From: Cypionkella sp.
GTDB taxonomy: Bacteria; Pseudomonadota; Alphaproteobacteria; Rhodobacterales; Rhodobacteraceae
Direction: 5' to 3'
Length of the DNA stretch: 64,000 nt
Assembly: GCF_030652235.1 (NCBI RefSeq)
Contig: NZ_JAUSBA010000045.1
Location: 124,001 to 188,000, forward strand
The notes beneath the pieces were generated by a model. That model did not search any database and was not told the origin of the DNA. It was given only the letters and a program-made list of their open reading frames with translations. The translations under genes and the position numbers were made by a program. Positions within the stretch are counted from its first letter, which is position 1; every line of letters begins with the position of its first letter. Shown piece by piece: positions 45,540 through 54,906 of the stretch.

Positions 45540-46328
45540 TTACAGATCAAACGTCGCGAACACCGGGGCATGGTCAGAGGGTTGCTCCCATCCGCGCACG
45601 CTGCGCAAAATGCGGCTGCCATGGGCGGATTTGGCAATATCAGGTGTGGCCCAGATGTGATCCAGCCGCCGACCTTTATCGGCAGCATCCCAATCGGGCG
45701 AGCGATAGCTCCACCAACTGTAGAGATTGCCGGTTGGAATATCGGCACGGGTCACATCAACCCAAGCCCCCGAGTCCATCGCCGCCCCAAAATGCTCGAC
45801 CTCAATCGGGGTGTGGCTGACGATCTTCAACAGCGCCTTGTGGTTCCACACATCATCCTCACGCGGAGCGATGTTCAGATCGCCCACCAGAATGGATTTG
45901 CTGGGTTTTTCACCATGAAACCAATCCCGCATCTCGGTCAGGAAATCCAGCTTTTGGCCAAATTTCACGTTCAGCACGCGGTCTGGGATATCACCCCCTG
46001 CTGGCACATAGCAGTTGTGGATCACCACGCCGTTTTCCAGCCGACCTGCAACATGCCGCGCATGACCCATGGCGACGAAATCGCGGCCACCCGCATCCTC
46101 CAGCGGCAGCTTGGAAAGAATTGCCACGCCGTTGTAACCCTTCTGGCCGCGCGCCACCATATAATGGTAGCCCAGCGCGCGGAACTGCTCGACCGGGATC
46201 AACGCGACCGGGCTTTTACATTCCTGCAAGCACAGCACATCAGGGGATTCATCCGCCATCAGCTTGGCCACCAGCCCTTCGCGCAGACGGACCGAATTGA
46301 TGTTCCAAGTGGCAAGGGTGAAGGTCAT
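45540..46328 (-). CDS. xth: Exodeoxyribonuclease III (262 aa)
   Basis: AP endonuclease/3'-5' exonuclease of base-excision repair. Family motifs are LATWNINSVRLR, CLQECK, ILVGDLNIAPREDDVWN, the DYSW-like LYSWWSYRS and the C-terminal PSDHAPVFATFDL. Start 46328 (MTFTLA) has AGGAG 8 nt upstream. The length is normal. It is a single gene with hemP and a candidate sRNA upstream on the same strand. Confidence 0.95.
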   Translation of the reverse strand: MTFTLATWNINSVRLREGLVAKLMADESPDVLCLQECKSPVALIPVEQFRALGYHYMVARGQKGYNGVAILSKLPLEDAGGRDFVAMGHARHVAGRLENGVVIHNCYVPAGGDIPDRVLNVKFGQKLDFLTEMRDWFHGEKPSKSILVGDLNIAPREDDVWNHKALLKIVSHTPIEVEHFGAAMDSGAWVDVTRADIPTGNLYSWWSYRSPDWDAADKGRRLDHIWATPDIAKSAHGSRILRSVRGWEQPSDHAPVFATFDL

Positions 46329-46423
46329 TGGCTGCTCCTGATCCAGACCAATCAGCCTAAGCCGCACCGCCACCGTTCTCAAGAGGGCAAAGCCCCCGAC
46401 GATAAGCTAAGGACCCGGCACAC

Positions 46424-46480
46424 AAAAAGTCGCCCAGCCAACGTGGCCGGGCGGAAGGTCCAACAGGGAGGTAATGTCCA
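46424..46480 (-). ncRNA. Candidate anti-Shine-Dalgarno small RNA / hemP 3' element, copy A
   Basis: Read on the - strand: ACCTCCCTGTTGGACC (46472-46457), then a 9-bp stem CGCCCGGCC/GGCTGGGCG with one mismatch, then TTTTTG. This is an intrinsic terminator with an exposed CCUCCC motif in front. It may end the hemP transcript 100 bp upstream or release a short 3' RNA. A TATGAT sequence (46492-46487) could serve as -10, but no -35 is evident. A second copy is at 54025-54138. Confidence 0.5.
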
Positions 46481-46578
46481 ACATATATCATAGAATACCG
46501 GGCATTTTCGCGCGCTGTTACAAATTACCCAAGCCATGGCTTTTTGGCCACAACCCAAGATTGCGCCGGGCTTTGCGC

Positions 46579-46761
46579 CTATTTGGTCAGGATCAGCTTC
46601 GCCGATTTGGTGATGCGCAGGGTGTAAATCTGCCCGTCCAACTCGATCAACGCGGTGCCCGCCCCGCCAGTCAGCGCCCGCGCGTCGTAGCGAAGAGTCC
46701 GATCAGAAGGAACAAGTTCCGGCGCAGGGTTCTGGGGCGAAAGAATTTGAGTTTCGTACAT
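46579..46761 (-). CDS. hemP: Hemin uptake protein HemP (60 aa)
   Basis: Small protein of the HemP family. The C-terminal part gives the signature: SDRTLRYDARALTGG, LIELDGQIYTLRITKS and KLILTK. In rhizobia and related bacteria hemP is iron-regulated and promotes expression of haem-uptake genes. Start 46761 has GGAG 7 nt upstream; the longer open frame to 47013 runs through the promoter box. An iron-type box shared with the imelysin operon lies 93 bp upstream. Confidence 0.92.
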   Translation of the reverse strand: MYETQILSPQNPAPELVPSDRTLRYDARALTGGAGTALIELDGQIYTLRITKSAKLILTK

Positions 46762-46853
46762 GATGTGCTCCGCAGCAGCTAGGATTGGCACTGAAAGACC
46801 GGCTTCCCAAAGGCGGGTGGCATGGCAATACTTAATACTTATCAAATTAGTCA

Positions 46854-46876
46854 GGAATGTAAATCCCGATTCTTTT
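46854..46876 (-). promoter_or_regulatory. Shared iron-regulation-type box upstream of hemP
   Basis: GGAATGTAAATCCCGATTC plus TTTT (given on the + strand), 93 bp upstream of hemP. Nearly the same sequence recurs at 52691-52712, upstream of the imelysin operon and the MFS gene. Shared use by iron-acquisition genes suggests binding by an iron regulator such as Irr, RirA or Fur; which one is unknown. The remaining 46877-46999 sequence shows nothing I can name. Confidence 0.65.
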
Positions 46877-46999
46877 ACTTGTCTTTCACAAGCTGCCCTG
46901 ATGTGGGGAGGGCGACGGGCGAGCCAGACAGCAACAGCCAAGTGCCGCTTCTTGGCAGTGGTGGGCTTTGCAATCTCAGCCAACGGCGGTCTGTCACTG

Positions 47000-47137
47000 A
47001 TGAAGATCGTCAAAAGTTTCAGCGCAGCAACGTTCGACGCAGCAGCGTTGAAGCATATCCAAGGCTCCGCCCCTTTCGCGCCGCCGCCTGCGGGTGCCTC
47101 AGCCCGGTTTCGCCTGAGTTTGTTGGGAGGTAATTAG
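47000..47137 (+). CDS. Possible small ORF of unknown function (45 aa)
   Basis: Open frame MKIVKSFSAATFDAAALKHI followed by a proline/alanine-rich stretch and LSLLGGN, ending in TAG. It overlaps the stop of the DUF1513 gene by 4 bp on the opposite strand. No ribosome-binding site is convincing and I recognise no family. It is listed because it fills an otherwise empty gap and has a plausible amphipathic start. Confidence 0.2.
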   Translation: MKIVKSFSAATFDAAALKHIQGSAPFAPPPAGASARFRLSLLGGN

Positions 47138-48192
47138 CTAAGGGCGATCAAATGGTTATCCCAAGCCGTCGCATTGCGGCTGAGGGATGCCAAACCAGTG
47201 CGGCCATAACTCCACACCCCGCCTTGCCCATCGGTTAGCCGCAACCCGTCGCCCACAGCCGCAGCGCCCGAGACATCGGCACGCGGGTCGGTTGCAAGCC
47301 ACTGGCCCGTGCCGTCAAACAGCATCACCACCCCCGCCGGGGCCGAAGTCAGCGCAATCAGATCACCCGCACGGGCAACAGCAATCGACCCGGCATAGCC
47401 CTTCATCGCAAACGACTGCTCGTCCGGTGGTGGGCACAACAGCGGCGCGGCACCCGGCACCCAAAGCCCCAGTTGCGCGACAGGCTCAGATTTATCCCCT
47501 TCCCACTGCATTGCAAACGCCACGCCGTCGCCATGCAAAGCCAGGTGGCGGATCGAGTTTTGGTGAAACTCATCCGCCAAGGCCACCTGATCCAGCACCG
47601 CGCCATCGGCCGAGAGTAGCGTCAGATTGGGTCGCATCGTGTCGATGTTCAGCTTGGTGCGGTCGCCCGGATCCGTTTCAATCCCGCCATTGGCGACCAC
47701 AATCCGGCCATCCGCCAGCCGCCGGATATCATGCGGGCCAATGCCACCACTGTTCCATTCACCGATGCGCGTGAAACCCGCCGTCTCCCACAGCCCAATC
47801 CGCCCTGCCGAGCCTTCTGCCACCACTTCGGACGTCATCAGCAGCGCGCCATCCGCCGAGAACGCACCATGGCCATTGAATTGCCGCCCCTCTGGCGGGG
47901 CCAAGCGGTGCCGCACCACCCCGGTCAAACAATCCAGCACCAACGCAAAAGTGCCGGGACGGCGGGCAAACGCAACCGCCAAGGCCTGCGATGGATGCGC
48001 CGCCGCCGCATGACCGCGCGCGGGCAAGGCAATCTCGAACAAGCTTTCGCCCGCGGCACTTAGCCCATGCAGGACAAATTCATCGCCCAGCTTTCCTGCC
48101 GCAAGGCAAGCAGGCCAGCCGACCTCCGCCCAAGACACCCGCGGCAAACTGGCCACAGCCAACCCTGCCAGAAACACCCGCCGCGTTGCCAT
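47134..48192 (-). CDS. DUF1513 domain protein, exported (352 aa)
   Basis: Beta-propeller-like DUF1513 protein. A twin-arginine-type signal is visible at the start (ATRRVFLAGLAVASLPRVSWAE). Landmarks are GRQFNGHGAFSADG, RIGEWNSGGIGPHDIRRLADG, VANGGIETDP and NSIRHLALHGDGVAFAMQWEG. It is the last gene of the imelysin/di-heme operon, in which DUF1513 genes are regularly found, and is thought to help iron uptake; the mechanism is unknown. Start 48192 is 1 nt past the upstream stop. Confidence 0.9.
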   Translation of the reverse strand: MATRRVFLAGLAVASLPRVSWAEVGWPACLAAGKLGDEFVLHGLSAAGESLFEIALPARGHAAAAHPSQALAVAFARRPGTFALVLDCLTGVVRHRLAPPEGRQFNGHGAFSADGALLMTSEVVAEGSAGRIGLWETAGFTRIGEWNSGGIGPHDIRRLADGRIVVANGGIETDPGDRTKLNIDTMRPNLTLLSADGAVLDQVALADEFHQNSIRHLALHGDGVAFAMQWEGDKSEPVAQLGLWVPGAAPLLCPPPDEQSFAMKGYAGSIAVARAGDLIALTSAPAGVVMLFDGTGQWLATDPRADVSGAAAVGDGLRLTDGQGGVWSYGRTGLASLSRNATAWDNHLIALS

Positions 48193-48193
48193 C

Positions 48194-49165
48194 TTAGTCT
48201 CCATCCGCCGCGTTAAAGCCGATGCCGACATCCAGTTCCGGCCCAAGTTCAGCCACCACGGTATCGGTCAAAGCGCTGATCGCCTGCTGCAAAATCTCTA
48301 CCTTCAGATGGCCCTGTGGCGTGGCAACCCCCGCAAAGGCGGGATCGTCAAACGTTTCGGCCAGCTTGATCGCGTGATCAAACCCGGCCAAAGTCAGCGA
48401 CGCATCCGGCGTCAGCGTCACCACCATCGCGCGCAAGCTTTGCAGTGAGATCAACACGTTGCGCTGACTGCGCGCCGAGGCAACTGCCTCAGCGCGTTCC
48501 GGACGTGGCTTGTCAAACGTGCCCAAGGGGCGGCCAAGCCGTTGATCTTTATCAAACTCCAATGCTGACACTATTTGCGTGAACAGCGTCTGGCGCACTT
48601 CGGGTCGGGTTTGGAATGTGGTGTTGCCCAAATCGCCCGCCGTCAAAATGGTCGTGGAATAGGTATTGATCCAGTTGTCGTTGATGATCTTCGCCATCCG
48701 GGCCAAATCCAGCGTCGTCGCTTGGATCAACGCGCAGGGGTCGGCGGGCAAAGCCTCTGCCGGATACAGCAACCGCTCCAACCCGGTCAGTCCGCGCGCG
48801 GCGACCGATTGATCTGGGAAATGCGCAGGGGTCAGTTGCGACGGATCGCCCTGCAGCAAAGCCCGCTGCGATTTCGCACCCGAGCCCTTTGGGTCAGGCC
48901 AAAACGCAATAGCCACCGATAGCCCATCTGCCTCGGCAGGGCCAAAGCGCAGGTGCTGCACAGCGGCCCAGGCATCATAGGCGGTGTGGAATGCGGGTTT
49001 CAGGCTGTCGGCCTTACAATTCTTTGCGGCGGCGTCGGACAAAGCCTGCGTGCTGGCCGCGAAAGCCGCGTAACCGGGCAGGATATGGTCGGACAAGGTC
49101 TGTTCAAAATCCGCCAGTGCTGGGGTGGCGAGGCATACAGACAGCAAGAATGAGCGCAGCAGCAT
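48194..49165 (-). CDS. Imelysin family protein (323 aa)
   Basis: Periplasmic all-helical protein of the imelysin (EfeO/IrpA-like) family. The signal peptide is MLLRSFLLSVCLATPALAD. The core has LSDHILPGYAAFAAST, AYDAWAAVQHLRFGPAEADG and ARGLTGLERLLYPAEALP. The G-x-H-x-x-E motif of canonical imelysins is replaced here by G-L-T-G-L-E, so metal binding may differ from the larger paralogue in the same operon. It sits between the di-heme oxidoreductase and DUF1513 genes. Confidence 0.9.
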   Translation of the reverse strand: MLLRSFLLSVCLATPALADFEQTLSDHILPGYAAFAASTQALSDAAAKNCKADSLKPAFHTAYDAWAAVQHLRFGPAEADGLSVAIAFWPDPKGSGAKSQRALLQGDPSQLTPAHFPDQSVAARGLTGLERLLYPAEALPADPCALIQATTLDLARMAKIINDNWINTYSTTILTAGDLGNTTFQTRPEVRQTLFTQIVSALEFDKDQRLGRPLGTFDKPRPERAEAVASARSQRNVLISLQSLRAMVVTLTPDASLTLAGFDHAIKLAETFDDPAFAGVATPQGHLKVEILQQAISALTDTVVAELGPELDVGIGFNAADGD

Positions 49166-49167
49166 GA

Positions 49168-50676
49168 TTACAAACTTTCCAGAAATGCGAGAATAGCGTC
49201 GCGGTCGTCTTTCGGCAAAGCCACCACGGCATCGCGGCTGGCCTGCGCCTCGCCGCCATGCCACAGCACCGCTTCCAAAAAGTTCCGCGCCCGCCCGTCG
49301 TGCAGAAATTCAGTGTGGCCCGAAACTTGGCTCGTCAACCCGATCCCCCACAAAGGTGGCGTTTTCCATTCCTGCCCGGTCGCGCGACCTTCGGGGCGGT
49401 TGTCGGCAAGCCCCACCCCCATGTCATGTAGCAGCAGATCGGTATAGGGCCAGATCAGTTGGAAACTTTGCTCGGGCTGGTCTTTCAGACGATTGGTGAC
49501 ATATTTCGGCGTATGGCAGGACGTGCAGCCGATGTCATAAAACACCCGCTTGCCGCGCAAAACCATGGGGTCATCAATGTTACGCCGCGATGGCACGCCC
49601 AGATTACGGGCATAAAACGTCACCAGATCAAGGCTTTGATGATCCACTTCCAGCCCACCCCGCACGCCCGGCTCTTGCCCGCTGATCGCCACGCGGCAGG
49701 CATCCTGTGCCGTGGTGCAGTCGCCCCACGGATCAGGATGCAAAGCGGTGGAAAGCCCCATATCGCCCTGAAACGCCGCCGCCGACTGATCGCGGATCGT
49801 GGCTTTGCCGCCTTTGAAACCAAAGCGGCCCAACATCGGCTTGCCGCCAGACCCGCCCGGCACAATGCTTGCGCGGCCCGAAATGCCATTGCCATCGGCG
49901 TCAGTCTCGTCGACGCGCGCCAGAATATCGGCCTCGGGGATCGCCTCTAGCAGCCCCAAGCCGATCATCTGCGGCGCGACACGCGGCGACAGCATGACGT
50001 GCGCAGCCATCGGGCCATAAGCCAAATCCGCCACCGAATACGCAGGCGCGCGCAAGCGGACCACGGTGCCATCGCCCAGCGTCACCGGAACCTCGGTATA
50101 GTCGATCACCATACGGCCTTCAGAGGCAACGCCAGCCGAAGCGAAGTCCTGGAATTGCCCGCCATAGGTCGGCTCATCCTGCGTCGCCAGCCAATCCTTG
50201 ATCGCGGCCGGGTTACTTCCCCCCGGAACCGAAAGCCGCAAGAACATCGACACAGCACTTTCGTCGGGGCCCGCGGGCACATGCCCGCGCCCGTCTTTCA
50301 GGTGGCAATCCTGACAACCACGCGCGTTGAACAATGGCCCCAGCCCGTCCGACGCTAAGGTTGAAGCCGGTGCTGGCACCCATGTCTTGGTGAATAAAGC
50401 ATTGCCAAGGTTGAAATTCATCTGCCGATCAAATGGCATATTGCCGGAGTATTGCGAAAACGCATCCGCCGTAGGCCGTGCCCGCACCGTCGCAGCCCCG
50501 CCCGGTTTCGCCTCAAACTTCTCAGATGCGCTAAAATCTTTAAGGGCCGCTAGCACGCCTGCAATTCGCGCAGCCTCGGCCTTGGTGCGGGGGATCACTG
50601 TCAAAGACTGATCCTGTAGGCCTTGCGCAAAGGCAGGCCCTGCCAACAGCGGCAGTATCAATAGGACGCGCAGCAT
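49168..50676 (-). CDS. Di-heme oxidoreductase, DUF1111 family (502 aa)
   Basis: Periplasmic c-type cytochrome of the DUF1111 'thiol oxidoreductase' family. A signal peptide (MLRVLLILPLLAGPAFAQG) precedes two haem-binding motifs, CQDCH (in FNARGCQDCHLKDGRGH) and CTSCH (in DIGCTSCHTPKY). Further landmarks are QMIGLGLLEAIPEADIL and RFGFKGGKATIRDQSA. It lies between two imelysin genes. A role as a redox partner for periplasmic iron handling is inferred from this recurrent context. Confidence 0.92.
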   Translation of the reverse strand: MLRVLLILPLLAGPAFAQGLQDQSLTVIPRTKAEAARIAGVLAALKDFSASEKFEAKPGGAATVRARPTADAFSQYSGNMPFDRQMNFNLGNALFTKTWVPAPASTLASDGLGPLFNARGCQDCHLKDGRGHVPAGPDESAVSMFLRLSVPGGSNPAAIKDWLATQDEPTYGGQFQDFASAGVASEGRMVIDYTEVPVTLGDGTVVRLRAPAYSVADLAYGPMAAHVMLSPRVAPQMIGLGLLEAIPEADILARVDETDADGNGISGRASIVPGGSGGKPMLGRFGFKGGKATIRDQSAAAFQGDMGLSTALHPDPWGDCTTAQDACRVAISGQEPGVRGGLEVDHQSLDLVTFYARNLGVPSRRNIDDPMVLRGKRVFYDIGCTSCHTPKYVTNRLKDQPEQSFQLIWPYTDLLLHDMGVGLADNRPEGRATGQEWKTPPLWGIGLTSQVSGHTEFLHDGRARNFLEAVLWHGGEAQASRDAVVALPKDDRDAILAFLESL

Positions 50677-50817
50677 CCAGGTCTTTCCTATATCAGTTGG
50701 CAGCGCTGTGTCCCGTTTCCTGCCCGGACCCGCAGCACCACCTGCTTACTCAGAGTGGGTTTCAGCAAACTTTGTCAATCGCAGCTTACGACCGACAAAG
50801 CCCCGTTAAGCCAAGCG

Positions 50818-52083
50818 TTACTGGAACACAGCACCCGGATTATCAAGACTTTCCGAGCCTTCAATGCTGGTGCCGGTCAGCCCCAAAGTGGTGATCGCGC
50901 GCTCAATCGAGGCGGTTTGCGTGACCAAAGTGTTTACGCCGCCCATCACCAAAGCCTCACCCTCTTTGTTGCCCGCCGCCAGCATCTGATCATAGGCCAT
51001 TCCGCCATCCGACGCTGCTTTGATCGCGCCCAAAGCGGTGACCGTAGCCGCCAATTCGCCCTTCAACTGCGTATCCACCGCAGGGTCCGCCGCCGCGACC
51101 AGCTCCGAAATCGAAGCCCCCGACACCACGCTGCCATCGACGCGCGTATACTTGCCCAGATAGACGTTCTGAATTCCAACGCCGTCATAATAATGGCTGT
51201 TGGCGGTGTTGTCCGAGAAGCAATCGTGCTCCTCCTCTGGGTCGTTCAGCATCAGGCCCAAACGCATCCGCTGGCCCGCAACCTCGCCATAAGACAGGCT
51301 GCCCATACCGGTCAGGATCGCCGACAAAGCCGCCTTAGGGTCTTTTTCAATCACCGCGCGCGCCGCGCCGCCAGCAGCCCATTGCCCGGCCATATCTGCC
51401 AAATCCATCACCAACAAATCGGTCGCCGCCTTTAAATACGCCGCGCGACGATCACAGTTGCCGCCCGTACAGCCCTCGCCCTGAACGTAATCCGTGAACG
51501 GCCGATTGCCCGCTCCCGGCCCGGTGCCGTTCAAATCCTGCCCCCAGAGCAGAAATTCAATCGCGTGATAGCCCGAAGCCACATTCGCCTCGATCCCGCC
51601 CGCCTCTTGCAACGTGCCCGAGATCAATTCCGGCGTGAGCGTGGTCGCATCCACCTCAACACCCGAGATGGTAAACTTCGGGGTCGCAATCACGTTCAGC
51701 GTCGCAAGGTCGTTTTCCTGTGACTTGCCATAAGACGGGTCAACATAGTCGATCAGCCCCTCATCCAGCGGCCAAGCGTTGATCTTGCCCTCCCAATCAT
51801 CCACCGCAACGTTGCCAAACCGAAACGCCTCGGTCTGCATGTAGGACGGGCGCGAGGCGATCCATGCGGCGCGCGCGGCTTTCAGGTTGTCTTCGCTGGG
51901 CGCTGCGGTCAACGCATCGACGGCCCCTTGCAGCGCCTTGGCAGTGATCAGGCTGTCGTCATAGCCCGCAGCGGCGATATCGGCGTAAGTCTTTGCAACC
52001 GCTGCCGGATCGGCGGCAAACACGGGCTGGACAGCCGACACAAAGGCGGTGGTGGCAAGCAGGGCTAAAAACGAGTTGCGCAT
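50818..52083 (-). CDS. Imelysin family iron-regulated protein IrpA-like (421 aa)
   Basis: Larger imelysin: signal peptide (LALLATTAFVSAVQPVFAAD), then a duplicated helical domain. The metal-type motif G-x-H-x-x-E is intact in SGYHAIEFLLWGQD. AARAAWIASRPSYMQTEAFRFG and DCFSDNTANSHYYDGVGIQN are also typical of IrpA. It binds or helps take up iron in related systems. It is the second gene of the operon that starts at 52602; the di-heme gene follows after 141 bp that hold no other gene. Confidence 0.93.
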   Translation of the reverse strand: MRNSFLALLATTAFVSAVQPVFAADPAAVAKTYADIAAAGYDDSLITAKALQGAVDALTAAPSEDNLKAARAAWIASRPSYMQTEAFRFGNVAVDDWEGKINAWPLDEGLIDYVDPSYGKSQENDLATLNVIATPKFTISGVEVDATTLTPELISGTLQEAGGIEANVASGYHAIEFLLWGQDLNGTGPGAGNRPFTDYVQGEGCTGGNCDRRAAYLKAATDLLVMDLADMAGQWAAGGAARAVIEKDPKAALSAILTGMGSLSYGEVAGQRMRLGLMLNDPEEEHDCFSDNTANSHYYDGVGIQNVYLGKYTRVDGSVVSGASISELVAAADPAVDTQLKGELAATVTALGAIKAASDGGMAYDQMLAAGNKEGEALVMGGVNTLVTQTASIERAITTLGLTGTSIEGSESLDNPGAVFQ

Positions 52084-52095
52084 AAGGGGTCTTTC

Positions 52096-52602
52096 CTAGT
52101 GACGTGTGGCTGAAGGGACGGAATATCCGTCGTTGGCAGAGGTGCGGTGAAGGATATCCAGCATCGCGCGGCCGACATATTCGGCGATCTGCACAGCCTC
52201 ATATGCAATGTCGGGTGGCAGCATAGTCAACGCAAAGGCCATCGCATCTTCGCGATCCCCCGCTGTGGCAGCCGCCACCATCTGGGCAAACGCACTTTCG
52301 TCACCGCCGAGGCAAGCGCATTGGGTGTGGTGCCGCATCAGGGGCCTGCGCCCCATCTGCACCATCAGCCTGATCAAATGCGCGAGGTTGTTCACCTCAA
52401 TCGCCGCCTGATCTGCCCCAAAAATCGCGGTGAAATCTTCGGCGACCGCGATCCGGCCCGCCTCGCCATCACACCATTGCCGCAACAGTTGTATCACGCC
52501 GCGCTCCAATGCTGGCATATCGGCCAGCATCCCCACCGCAGCACCGCCCCGCACTGGGCTGGCATCGGTGACCTTCGACGATTTGAACCAAGAATAGCTC
52601 AT
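52096..52602 (-). CDS. Conserved hypothetical protein heading the iron operon (168 aa)
   Basis: Not recognised beyond its context. Soluble, no signal peptide. It has a helical core (LERGVIQLLRQWCDGEAGR, EVNNLAHLIRLMVQMGRRPL) and a Cys/His cluster MRHHTQCACLGGDE that could bind metal. Start 52602 (MSYSWFKSS) has GGAAG upstream; a longer reading to 52641 adds 13 residues. Position as first gene after the iron-type box suggests iron control and perhaps a regulatory or metal-sensing role, which is speculation. Confidence 0.72.
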   Translation of the reverse strand: MSYSWFKSSKVTDASPVRGGAAVGMLADMPALERGVIQLLRQWCDGEAGRIAVAEDFTAIFGADQAAIEVNNLAHLIRLMVQMGRRPLMRHHTQCACLGGDESAFAQMVAAATAGDREDAMAFALTMLPPDIAYEAVQIAEYVGRAMLDILHRTSANDGYSVPSATRH

Positions 52603-52690
52603 AACTTCCAACTGCCTTTCGAGACTGCACGTTGCAACCAACGCCCTGCCGACAGGTTGGGCCTTGCGGTATTAGCTGACGGATTCTCTC

Positions 52691-52712
52691 GGAAATGTAA
52701 ATCCGATTCTTT
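52691..52712. promoter_or_regulatory. Shared iron-regulation-type box between the imelysin operon and the MFS gene
   Basis: GGAAATGTAAATCCGATTC plus TTT, 89 bp upstream of the 168-aa gene (- strand) and 64 bp upstream of the MFS gene (+ strand). It matches the hemP box at 46854-46876 except for one inserted and one missing base. Confidence 0.65.
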
Positions 52713-52776
52713 CTGTCGGCTAATCGCAGCCAAAGCCAGCTTGACCCGTCCCCGCAGGGCATGCAGTCATGCCGCC

Positions 52777-54012
52777 ATGACCCAAATCTCGCTCTGGCAA
52801 AACCGCAACTTCCGCCTGATGTTCGCCTCATCCGCCGCCACCAACCTTGGCGATGGCTTGATCACGGTTGCGGTGGCATGGCTGGCGACGCTGCTGACGC
52901 ATGATCCTTTCCTGATCGGCCTTGTCGCCACCGCCCGCAGCTTGCCATGGTTTCTGTTCGCTTTGCCCGCAGGCGTGATCACCGACCGAGTCGATCACCG
53001 CCGCTTGATCATCGGCGCCGATTGCCTGCGGATTGTGATTTCAGTGGCCTTGCTGACTTTGGCGCTGACAGCCAGCCCCGGCACGGGTCCGGTGCTGCTG
53101 ATGGCCGCCCTATCCTTCGTCTTAGGCAGCGCCGAGGTGTTGCGCGACAACACAGCACAAACCTTCACGCCCGCCGTTGTTGAGAAATCGCAACTGGAGC
53201 AAGCCAATGGCGCGATGTGGAGCACAGAACAACTTGCAGGCCAGTTCATCGGCCCACCGCTTGCGGGCCTGCTGATCGGCATATCTGTGGCGCTGCCGTT
53301 CGGCATCCAAGCCGCGATGCTGGTCACAGCCGTCGCCCTGATCGCAAGTGTCAGGCTGCCAGAACGCGCCCCAACCTCCCCGCATCTGCCCATGCTGGCT
53401 GCCTTAAAAGAAGGCATGCTCTGGCTCTGGCGCGACATGCCCCTGCGCCGCCTTGCCTTCATTCTGGGCGGCTTCAACTTCATCGGCTACGGTTTCGCCG
53501 CCGTACTGGTGCTGTACAGCCAACGCGTTCTCGGCTTGGATGCTTTCGGTTTCGGCATCTTCCTGACCCTTCCGGCGATTGGAGGCCTCGCCGCCACCCT
53601 GATCGGCCCGCGCATCCTGCGCCACGTTACCCCAAGAACGGCCATTCTGCTTGGCATGACTGGATTCACCGCCGCCGCTTTGGTTTTGGCGCTGCAATCT
53701 CCGCTCTGGCTGATCGCCATTTTCTTGGTACTCGACGGCTTTTCCGGCATGCTGTGGAACATCGCCCAAGTCAGCTACCGCCAACGCCACATCCCCGCGC
53801 CGCTGCTGGGCCGCGTCAACTCCGCCTTCCGCTTCATCGGCACAGGCCCTGCGGCGTTTGGTGCCTTCACCTTCGGCGGTCTGATCGCATGGGCGGGTTC
53901 GGGGGCAGAGCCTTGGGGCACGGCGCAAGCCGTGTTGCTGCCCTACTGGGTGGCCGCCGCCATCGCCGGGGCATTGACGCTTTACGCCGCCGCCCGTCTG
54001 CAGCTGCGATAG
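52777..54012 (+). CDS. Major facilitator superfamily transporter (411 aa)
   Basis: Twelve-helix MFS transporter, close in layout to the EntS-like exporter group. Landmarks are NRNFRLMFASSAATNLGDG, PWFLFALPAGVITDRVDHRR and EQLAGQFIGPPLAG. Start 52777 (MTQISLW) begins just before the first conserved block. The gene shares its upstream region and the iron-type box with the imelysin operon, so an iron-linked role such as siderophore or metal-chelate export is possible. No siderophore biosynthesis gene is in the window. Confidence 0.85.
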   Translation: MTQISLWQNRNFRLMFASSAATNLGDGLITVAVAWLATLLTHDPFLIGLVATARSLPWFLFALPAGVITDRVDHRRLIIGADCLRIVISVALLTLALTASPGTGPVLLMAALSFVLGSAEVLRDNTAQTFTPAVVEKSQLEQANGAMWSTEQLAGQFIGPPLAGLLIGISVALPFGIQAAMLVTAVALIASVRLPERAPTSPHLPMLAALKEGMLWLWRDMPLRRLAFILGGFNFIGYGFAAVLVLYSQRVLGLDAFGFGIFLTLPAIGGLAATLIGPRILRHVTPRTAILLGMTGFTAAALVLALQSPLWLIAIFLVLDGFSGMLWNIAQVSYRQRHIPAPLLGRVNSAFRFIGTGPAAFGAFTFGGLIAWAGSGAEPWGTAQAVLLPYWVAAAIAGALTLYAAARLQLR

Positions 54013-54024
54013 CAAGATCGGGAT

Positions 54025-54138
54025 AAAAAAGACCGGGCACAAGGCCCGGCCAGGTCCAACAGGGAGGGTGCTGTGCCATAACCCCGACACAGCAAGGGGA
54101 ACTTTTGGCCGCCGGGCGGGGAGGACGCGCTTTGGCCT
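54025..54138 (-). ncRNA. Candidate anti-Shine-Dalgarno small RNA, copy B
   Basis: In the 207-bp gap between convergent genes, the - strand carries TTATTG-N17-TATCTA (54173-54145) as a weak promoter, then CCTCCCC (54124-54118), a GCTGTG/CACAGC hairpin, and CCCTCCCTGTTGGACC. It ends in a CCGGGC/GCCCGG terminator stem followed by T6 (54030-54025). The predicted RNA is about 110 nt. The CCTCCCTGTTGGACC-hairpin-T block is shared with 46424-46480. It may instead be the 3' end of the response-regulator transcript. Confidence 0.5.
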
Positions 54139-54219: not shown

Positions 54220-54906
54220 TTACGCGACCAGCTTATAGCCGCCATTCTCGGTCACCAGCAGCCGCGCGTTGCTTGGATCAGACTCAATCTTCTGCCGCAG
54301 ACGGTAGATGTGGGTCTCAAGTGTGTGCGTTGTAACGCCAGCATTATAGCCCCAAACCTCGTGCAGCAGCACATCGCGCGCCACCACGCCTTGTTGCGCG
54401 CGGTAGAGATACTTCAGGATGTTGGTTTCCTTTTCAGTCAACCGCACCTTCTTATCCTTGGCATCGACCAGCATTTTCTGCGCGGGCTTGAACGTATACG
54501 GCCCCATCTGGAACACCGCGTCTTCGGATTGTTCATGCGTGCGCAACTGCGCGCGTATCCGCGCTAACAGCACCGGAAACTTGAACGGCTTGGTCACATA
54601 ATCATTGGCACCCGAATCAAGGCCCAAAATCGTGTCGCTGTCGGTGTCATGCCCGGTCAGCATCATGATCGGGCATTTCACCCCGGCCTTGCGCATCCGG
54701 CGACACAATTCGCGCCCATCCGTATCGGGCAAGCCCACATCCAGAATAACCAGATCGAACAGACCCGCCTTGACCTTCTCCATGCCCTCAGCCCCGGTGC
54801 GGCCCTCAAACACGTCGAAATCTTCGGTCATCACCAACTGCTCGCTCAGCGCTTCGCGCAGATCGTCATCGTCATCGACCAGCAAAATTTTCCGCAACGT
54901 TGCCAT
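54220..54906 (-). CDS. OmpR/PhoB-family response regulator (228 aa)
   Basis: Two-domain DNA-binding response regulator. The receiver domain has the acidic pocket DDDDD (residues 11-15), phospho-acceptor D56 in [13 protein letters not shown], the MMLTG switch and K in VTKPFK. The C-terminal winged helix has [35 protein letters not shown] and NGGYKLVA. Start 54906 (MATLRK) has GGAGG 7 nt upstream. No histidine kinase gene lies beside it. It is not CtrA, whose receiver and motif sequences differ. Divergent from ribA. Confidence 0.92.

Follow-up and report, generated by a model that had tools for sequence, protein, structure and literature searches.

A 64,000-nucleotide (nt) stretch of a Cypionkella sp. 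genome (contig NZ_JAUSBA010000045.1, positions 124,001 to 188,000; hereafter the window) carries two short minus-strand elements, termed copy A and copy B, and raises the question of whether they belong to a family of small RNAs complementary to Shine-Dalgarno sequences. An original prediction, made from the letters of the window, described a shared sequence followed in both places by a hairpin and a T-run. That observation was correct: the 15-mer CCTCCCTGTTGGACC has exactly two occurrences in the window, at 46471-46457 (copy A) and 54067-54053 (copy B), both on the minus strand, and a GC-rich stem and then a T-run follow each occurrence. Across the whole 4.8-Mb genome the 15-mer is likewise found twice, compared with no occurrence of the control pattern read backwards. 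The best explanation overall, which we hold to be probable, is that copy B is SorX, a stress-response small RNA known from purple bacteria and their kin, and that copy A is a SorX duplicate whose own promoter would make a minimal RNA beginning with the seed.

The shared core and the identity of copy B

The exact 13-nt core is found a third time in this genome, within a SorY-type gene flanked by LysR and PurL genes. Its conservation in the family is far above chance, as 231 of 246 family genomes carry the 13-mer versus only about five for the reversed pattern. The proposal of an anti-Shine-Dalgarno small-RNA family stands insofar as both copies are members of a Rhodobacteraceae group with a strictly conserved core and variable stems. 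It does not stand for copy B, which is not new.

Copy B matches the SorX family of Rfam (RF02784) with 78 bits (cut-off 46.6; E 1.8e-17) over the full model, positions 1-73 of 73, and this match, at 54101-54025 on the minus strand, was the single one over its cut-off when the window was scanned with Rfam. The stem and tail of the copy end at 54025. It lies directly downstream of a cenR-type gene on the same strand, whose product shares 89% identity with the protein encoded ahead of SorX in genome G079. That genome was taken as R. sphaeroides 2.4.1 because its SorX and SorY cores, at 2,598,257 and 1,632,683, fit the published positions (SorX 5' end, 2,598,224; SorY start, 1,632,642; PMC6238624) and both genes pass their Rfam cut-offs. 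In G079 the RF02784 model starts no more than 1 nt from the published position of the mature SorX 5' end, the gene order there is cenR-SorX-xthA, and SorY lies between LysR and PurL genes as it does in the genome of the window. The identification of copy B as SorX is virtually certain; it is an ordinary SorX and not a new element. What had been read as an extra hairpin is the normal SorX 5' hairpin, and the end points first given to copy B were too short for SorX, whose start is near 54101.

In R. sphaeroides, the parent gene of SorX, RSP_0847, is reported to be CenR (PMC9275681). SorX itself is described as derived from a 3' untranslated region (UTR), dependent on Hfq and cut from its parent mRNA, and as inhibiting the translation of potA and so lowering the uptake of spermidine (PMC9438474); processing by RNase E to a SorX of 75 nt and regulation of potA are both reported (PMC6238624, PMC9438474). 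By analogy, copy B would be processed from the 3' end of the cenR mRNA and would pair with target mRNAs, presumably via CCUCCCUGUUGGACC. A second CCTCCCC (54124-54118) is found between cenR and SorX within a GC-rich stretch, 54108-54128 on the minus strand, which is common to G004, G005, and G007 and absent from the other genus genomes shown.

Copy A as a probable shortened SorX duplicate

Copy A has a ACCUCCCUGUUGGACCU core followed by a terminator, as SorX does, and of the 3' oligo-U looked for in Hfq-dependent small RNAs it has only five U before a G. Folding of a 55-nt form gives -21.6 kcal/mol (z -3.8), and the centroid leaves the seed unpaired. Among ten Cypionkella sequences, 94.9% of the cells of the terminator stem are paired. 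The seed is invariant at 17 of 17 columns in these sequences while the flanks vary and the stems differ, in line with what the original prediction had noted for the two copies. The 5' hairpin of SorX is missing: the model's 5' stem aligns to copy A with marked non-pairs and with 19 bases against the model's 5, and the centroid folds show no SorX-like 5' stem.

The origin of copy A was followed by searching for the exact 13-nt core in 41 genomes and sorting the copies by their neighbourhoods and by protein comparison. Most copies fall in three places, namely SorX after cenR, SorY by the LysR and PurL genes, and a third position before xthA. The third-position copy is present in 10 of 15 Cypionkella genomes and in some other Rhodobacteraceae. 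In four of the ten (G001, G002, G003, and G006) it lies 149-191 nt after SorX, giving the order cenR-SorX-A-xthA, and in G012 an MFS gene stands between SorX and copy A. The remaining five (G000, which holds the window, and G004, G005, G007, and G009) have the order hemP-A-xthA; in the window, hemP (PF10636), which had been noted before, is confirmed upstream, and an xthA-type gene (PF03372) lies downstream. The distance from SorX to copy A is 7.6 kb in the window and about 15 kb in the other four. Of the genomes lacking the third copy, a SorY-type core is the only one in G008, G010, and G011, and no core is present in G013 (75% complete).

These arrangements make it very likely that copy A is a SorX duplicate. 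It would have arisen in tandem between SorX and xthA, lost the 5' hairpin and kept the seed and terminator. On the simplest history, SorX was first duplicated in tandem, and other genes then entered between the two copies in some members of the genus. Duplication next to SorX is indicated by the position of the copy in relatives, after SorX and before xthA, the sequence being too short for a tree. Copy A appears to be an undescribed, shortened duplicate with the same target-binding stretch and its own on-switch, and Rfam-based annotation would miss it because it scores under the Rfam cut-offs.

Similar copies occur beyond the genus. A scan of named genomes for TACCTCCCTGTTGGACCT returned 22 loci, which by their context comprise 14 second copies, four SorY-type, three SorX and one unclassified; the second copies include Cypionkella psychrotolerans, C. 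aquatica, Tabrizicola, Gemmobacter, and Pseudorhodobacter. Two spaced-pair tandem patterns were found in at least 5 and at least 5 of 394 family genomes, which together make ten distinct genomes, and both counts are lower bounds because the patterns need a T in the gap and exact cores, so that the pairs of G051 and G226 were missed. Like copy A, short second copies score below the SorX cut-off of 46.6 bits (L061, 34.4; L115, 30.5; L125, 45.7; L132, 44.1; L148, 46.2; L190, 28.2), and those in L057 and L135 gave no SorX model match at E 0.01. The L151 second copy, which keeps the 5' hairpin, reaches 69.8 bits. Locus L003 (26.3 bits to SorX) was rejected, as it lacks a seed core and open reading frame (ORF) reading places it inside coding sequence. 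Further loci (L091 at 1525, L131 at 319, L191, L193, L198, and L200) carry a CCTCCCTGTTGGA core and terminator-like stems without the marker genes used, and are possible extra members. A sub-threshold match to the sX6 small RNA (30.4 bits; cut-off 40) lies downstream of the G002 second copy, at 2450-2577 of L061.

Promoter elements and competing sources of copy A

The features of the window are collected in the table below.

Features of the copy A and SorX region (positions of the window; all on the minus strand)
Feature	Position	Strand	Basis or remark
xthA-type exonuclease III gene, downstream of copy A	45540..46325	-	PF03372; follows SorX in R. sphaeroides
Copy A, predicted small RNA of about 52 nt	46424..46475	-	start inferred from -10 element
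Intrinsic terminator of copy A: 10-pair stem 46453-46431, T-run 46428-46424	46424..46453	-	
Seed of copy A, ACCTCCCTGTTGGACCT	46456..46472	-	17/17 columns invariant, 10 sequences
Extended -10 element, TG-A-TATATG	46482..46490	-	TGnTA invariant in 10/10 Cypionkella second copies, 16-19 nt from CCTCCC
Conserved upstream block GTTGTGGCCAAAAAGCCATG, possible regulator site	46535..46554	-	GTTGTGGC invariant in 10/10
hemP, upstream neighbour of copy A	46582..46761	-	PF10636, 55.9 bits; not essential to copy A
DUF1513, imelysin, di-haem oxidoreductase, and imelysin genes between SorX and copy A	47134..52083	-	PF07433, PF09375, PF06537, PF09375
SorX small RNA (copy B): 5' hairpin, CCTCCCTGTTGGACC, terminator	54025..54101	-	RF02784
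OmpR-family response regulator, CenR type (SorX parent gene)	54220..54906	-	PF00072 + PF00486

Promoter elements were counted in 110 distinct loci (42 SorX, 31 SorY, 23 tandem second copies, 5 hemP-linked copies, and 9 unclassified), after loci with less than 130 nt upstream or less than 50 nt downstream and sequence duplicates had been dropped; the proportion of second copies, 28 of 110, is no frequency, because they were sought on purpose. A TGnTA element 16-19 nt before CCTCCC is found at 13 of the 28 second copies versus none of 42 SorX, 31 SorY, and 9 unclassified loci. An FNR-type box (at most one mismatch, within 130 nt upstream) is present at 8 of 28 second copies versus 1 of 42 SorX and none of the SorY or unclassified loci. 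In six of the 28, the window's copy not among them, the box is centred 41 or 42 nt before CCTCCC. At a class II FNR promoter with its box at -41.5, transcription would begin at about the A of ACCTCCC. Dinucleotide shuffles of the 28 sequences (300 rounds) gave no box at 40-43 nt and, anywhere in the 130 nt, a box in a mean of 0.1 and a maximum of two sequences. Among 12 distinct second copies collected after the FNR pattern had been noticed, the box is found in three and at 41 nt in one. Widening the search to 300 nt upstream adds one box, at 186 nt of the hemP-linked L043. Two loci, L149 and L151, appear to be tandem duplicates of the whole of SorX in place of the short form; in these the FNR-type box of the second copy lies upstream of its 5' hairpin, at 74 and 78 nt.

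A ChIP-seq (chromatin immunoprecipitation sequencing) peak of FnrL has been reported in the putative promoter region of RSs2461 of R. sphaeroides, its effect on the RNA not being established (PMC4263372), and RSs2461 is SorX (PMC5036791). A connection of FnrL with this locus is thus not entirely new; what is added here is where the FNR box lies in SorX duplicates.

In the Cypionkella copies a conserved block stands upstream. With up to three mismatches, GTTGTGGCCAAAAAGCCATG has one match in the window against 0.06 expected. The second copy of L190 (G143), which is from another genus and lies about 1.4 kb after SorX, carries a close variant of the block, GTTGTGACCGAAAAACCATGG, and also TGGTATGCAT, which suggests that the putative operator is not confined to one genus. 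Reading of the block as a CenR site (TGA-N8-TGA) was rejected on inspection of the sequence.

From these elements, copy A is probably transcribed from a promoter of its own. The RNA would begin a few bases ahead of the seed and end at the terminator about 50 nt on (about 46475 to 46424); given conserved promoter elements of its own upstream, copy A probably yields a primary transcript of about 52 nt that carries the seed at the 5' end. The promoter of some relatives would have an FNR-type box at the class II position, and at the window's copy the conserved block GTTGTGGCnAAAAAGYCATG may replace it. On a broader scale, it is conceivable, and we put it forward tentatively, that Rhodobacteraceae, perhaps repeatedly, made the tail of a processed 3'-UTR RNA a free-standing minimal gene, by setting a duplicated SorX seed and terminator behind a promoter that starts transcription at the seed, and swapped its input, for an FnrL box at -41.5 in several genera and for another operator in Cypionkella.

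Several results weigh against a promoter-driven duplicate. Outside Cypionkella, TGnTA is found at only 3 of 18 second copies; ten of the 13 cases are Cypionkella, where the element was first noticed, and kinship among the sequences inflates the counts. Of the 28 second copies, 11 have no TGnTA at 16-19 nt and no FNR box at 41-42 nt, and several of these 11 resemble duplicates of the whole of SorX. Near -41 the window's copy lacks an FNR box, the best in 130 nt having two mismatches at 118 nt, and a sigma-70 scan of 46380-46900 found no -35/-10 promoter. A weak terminator-like hairpin (46559-46528) overlaps the upstream block of the window, which could therefore be RNA structure and not an operator. 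Genome-wide, the block has no other match with fewer than three mismatches, and reversed controls give three, so no regulon is visible. Covariation of the copy A stem in the ten sequences does not go beyond shuffles (46 of 500 reach it), and the structure therefore rests on the form of the terminator. Copy A also falls under every Rfam cut-off (suhB, 26.8 bits with cut-off 41; SorX, 21.9 with 46.6; SorY, 19.5 with 111). It is not universal in the genus, since G014 (99% complete) has SorX and SorY cores only. Finally, the leaders of PotA-type genes show no clear pairing (-9.0 to -20.2 kcal/mol for 21 loci of 30, several with doubtful start codons).

Other sources of the element were weighed on the same data. 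If RNase E cut copy A from the 3' UTR of the hemP mRNA, the RNA would be made under iron limitation, and there is a precedent in the 3'-UTR origin of SorX (PMC9438474). The gene ends 110-178 nt upstream on the same strand in five genomes; between 46380 and 46900 the terminator-like sites are those of copy A and one weak hairpin only, and imelysin genes lie near. However, copy A and its upstream block are equally conserved in five genus genomes without hemP there. A-type copies with the same block thus stand without hemP in 5 of the 10 Cypionkella genomes, and hemP is not necessarily the parent. In addition, ten hemP loci elsewhere (nine genomes) have no exact core, and the -10 element sits between hemP and the seed. 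A hemP origin is thus unlikely, although both transcript sources could coexist.

It is less likely still that copy A is merely the terminator of the hemP or SorX region, with the seed as a relic of duplication. The intrinsic terminator is good, and terminators alone are common, but a terminator needs no invariant 17-nt seed, the stems vary where the seed does not, and TGnTA was seen at the promoter position only at second copies. Least probable of all is a truncated SorX pseudogene in decay. The missing 5' hairpin, the scores under the Rfam cut-off, the lack of a second core after SorX in G079 (where none was found between SorX and xthA) and the tandem patterns in at least 5 and at least 5 of 394 family genomes would fit such a history. 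Decay is not expected to leave the seed invariant in 10 of 10 sequences or to preserve the upstream block and the -10 element across these ten genomes.

Targets and comparison with known systems

In copy A, the seed near the 5' end would pair with Shine-Dalgarno regions near AACAGGGAGG and block ribosome binding, probably with Hfq, while the terminator hairpin would stabilize the 3' end. Leaders carrying GGTCCAACAGGGAGG had been proposed as perfect targets. This fails, because the genome does not contain GGTCCAACAGGGAGG except in the two genes; the 15-mer is found nowhere else, and the three occurrences of the exact 13-mer all fall in small-RNA genes. The shorter AACAGGGAGG, followed by 3-11 nt and ATG, has nine matches in 6 of 15 genus genomes, one of which is SorX read backwards. 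Three, each a 10-nt complement spanning the Shine-Dalgarno region, precede a cytochrome c gene, with duplexes of -21.4 (the window's genome), -20.7 (G007), and -22.2 kcal/mol (G012). In G004 and G001 the corresponding leaders do not contain the exact 10-mer, and their duplexes have -16.1 and -19.7 kcal/mol, compared with -13.3 for the leaders of hemP, -15.0 for xthA, and -13.6 for cenR. Cytochrome c is a lead only, since leaders rich in Shine-Dalgarno sequence pair with any CCUCC RNA and the energies have no genome-wide background. For potA, a TIGR01187 search matched very many ABC ATPases, and the two strongest PotA-type duplexes are both in G079.

SorX is a studied 3'-UTR-derived small RNA, and duplicates with and without promoter elements would show a route from such RNAs to independent genes, and how the regulator changes while one seed is kept. 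If the swap of inputs proposed above is true, one target set would be wired to stress-sigma and cenR inputs via SorX and SorY, and to oxygen or another signal via the second copies. Three RNAs with the same 13-nt core and different inputs in one cell would allow a direct test of what the SorX/SorY seed is for. The literature matches listed include no second SorX copy, no hemP-linked small RNA in Rhodobacteraceae and no Cypionkella small RNA, though the original SorX and SorY papers might mention copies.

The original prediction likened the group to the CcsR RNAs of R. sphaeroides, which carry a CCUCC anti-Shine-Dalgarno motif. The group is that of SorX and SorY instead. CcsR RNAs are reported as cotranscribed with ccaF1 (PMC8307010). 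Pfam did not name ccaF1 among nine neighbouring proteins (eight of other families, one without a match; small ORFs were not all scanned). FnrS of E. coli is a small RNA made when oxygen runs out. The second copies with an FNR box would have a similar role if FnrL activates them, and the window's copy is without the box; FnrS is also named in PMC4263372.

The suhB/mmgR family (RF00519) has in common with copy A a CCUCCCU core before the terminator, whereas copy A diverges after the core and scores low against that model. SorY (RF02651, formerly RSs1543) shares the core CCUCCCUGUUGGAC with copy A, and its own promoter has been reported (PMC6238624), as is proposed for copy A. The two differ in setting, SorY lying between LysR and PurL genes and copy A having hemP and xthA as neighbours, and copy A remains far below the SorY cut-off. 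The closest system is SorX (RF02784, formerly RSs2461). Copy B is the same in sequence, structure, and gene context. Copy A shares with SorX the ACCUCCCUGUUGGACCU core, the terminator layout, and the ancestral neighbourhood, and differs in lacking the 5' hairpin, in scoring less than half of the SorX cut-off, and in having an apparent promoter of its own instead of an origin in the cenR mRNA.

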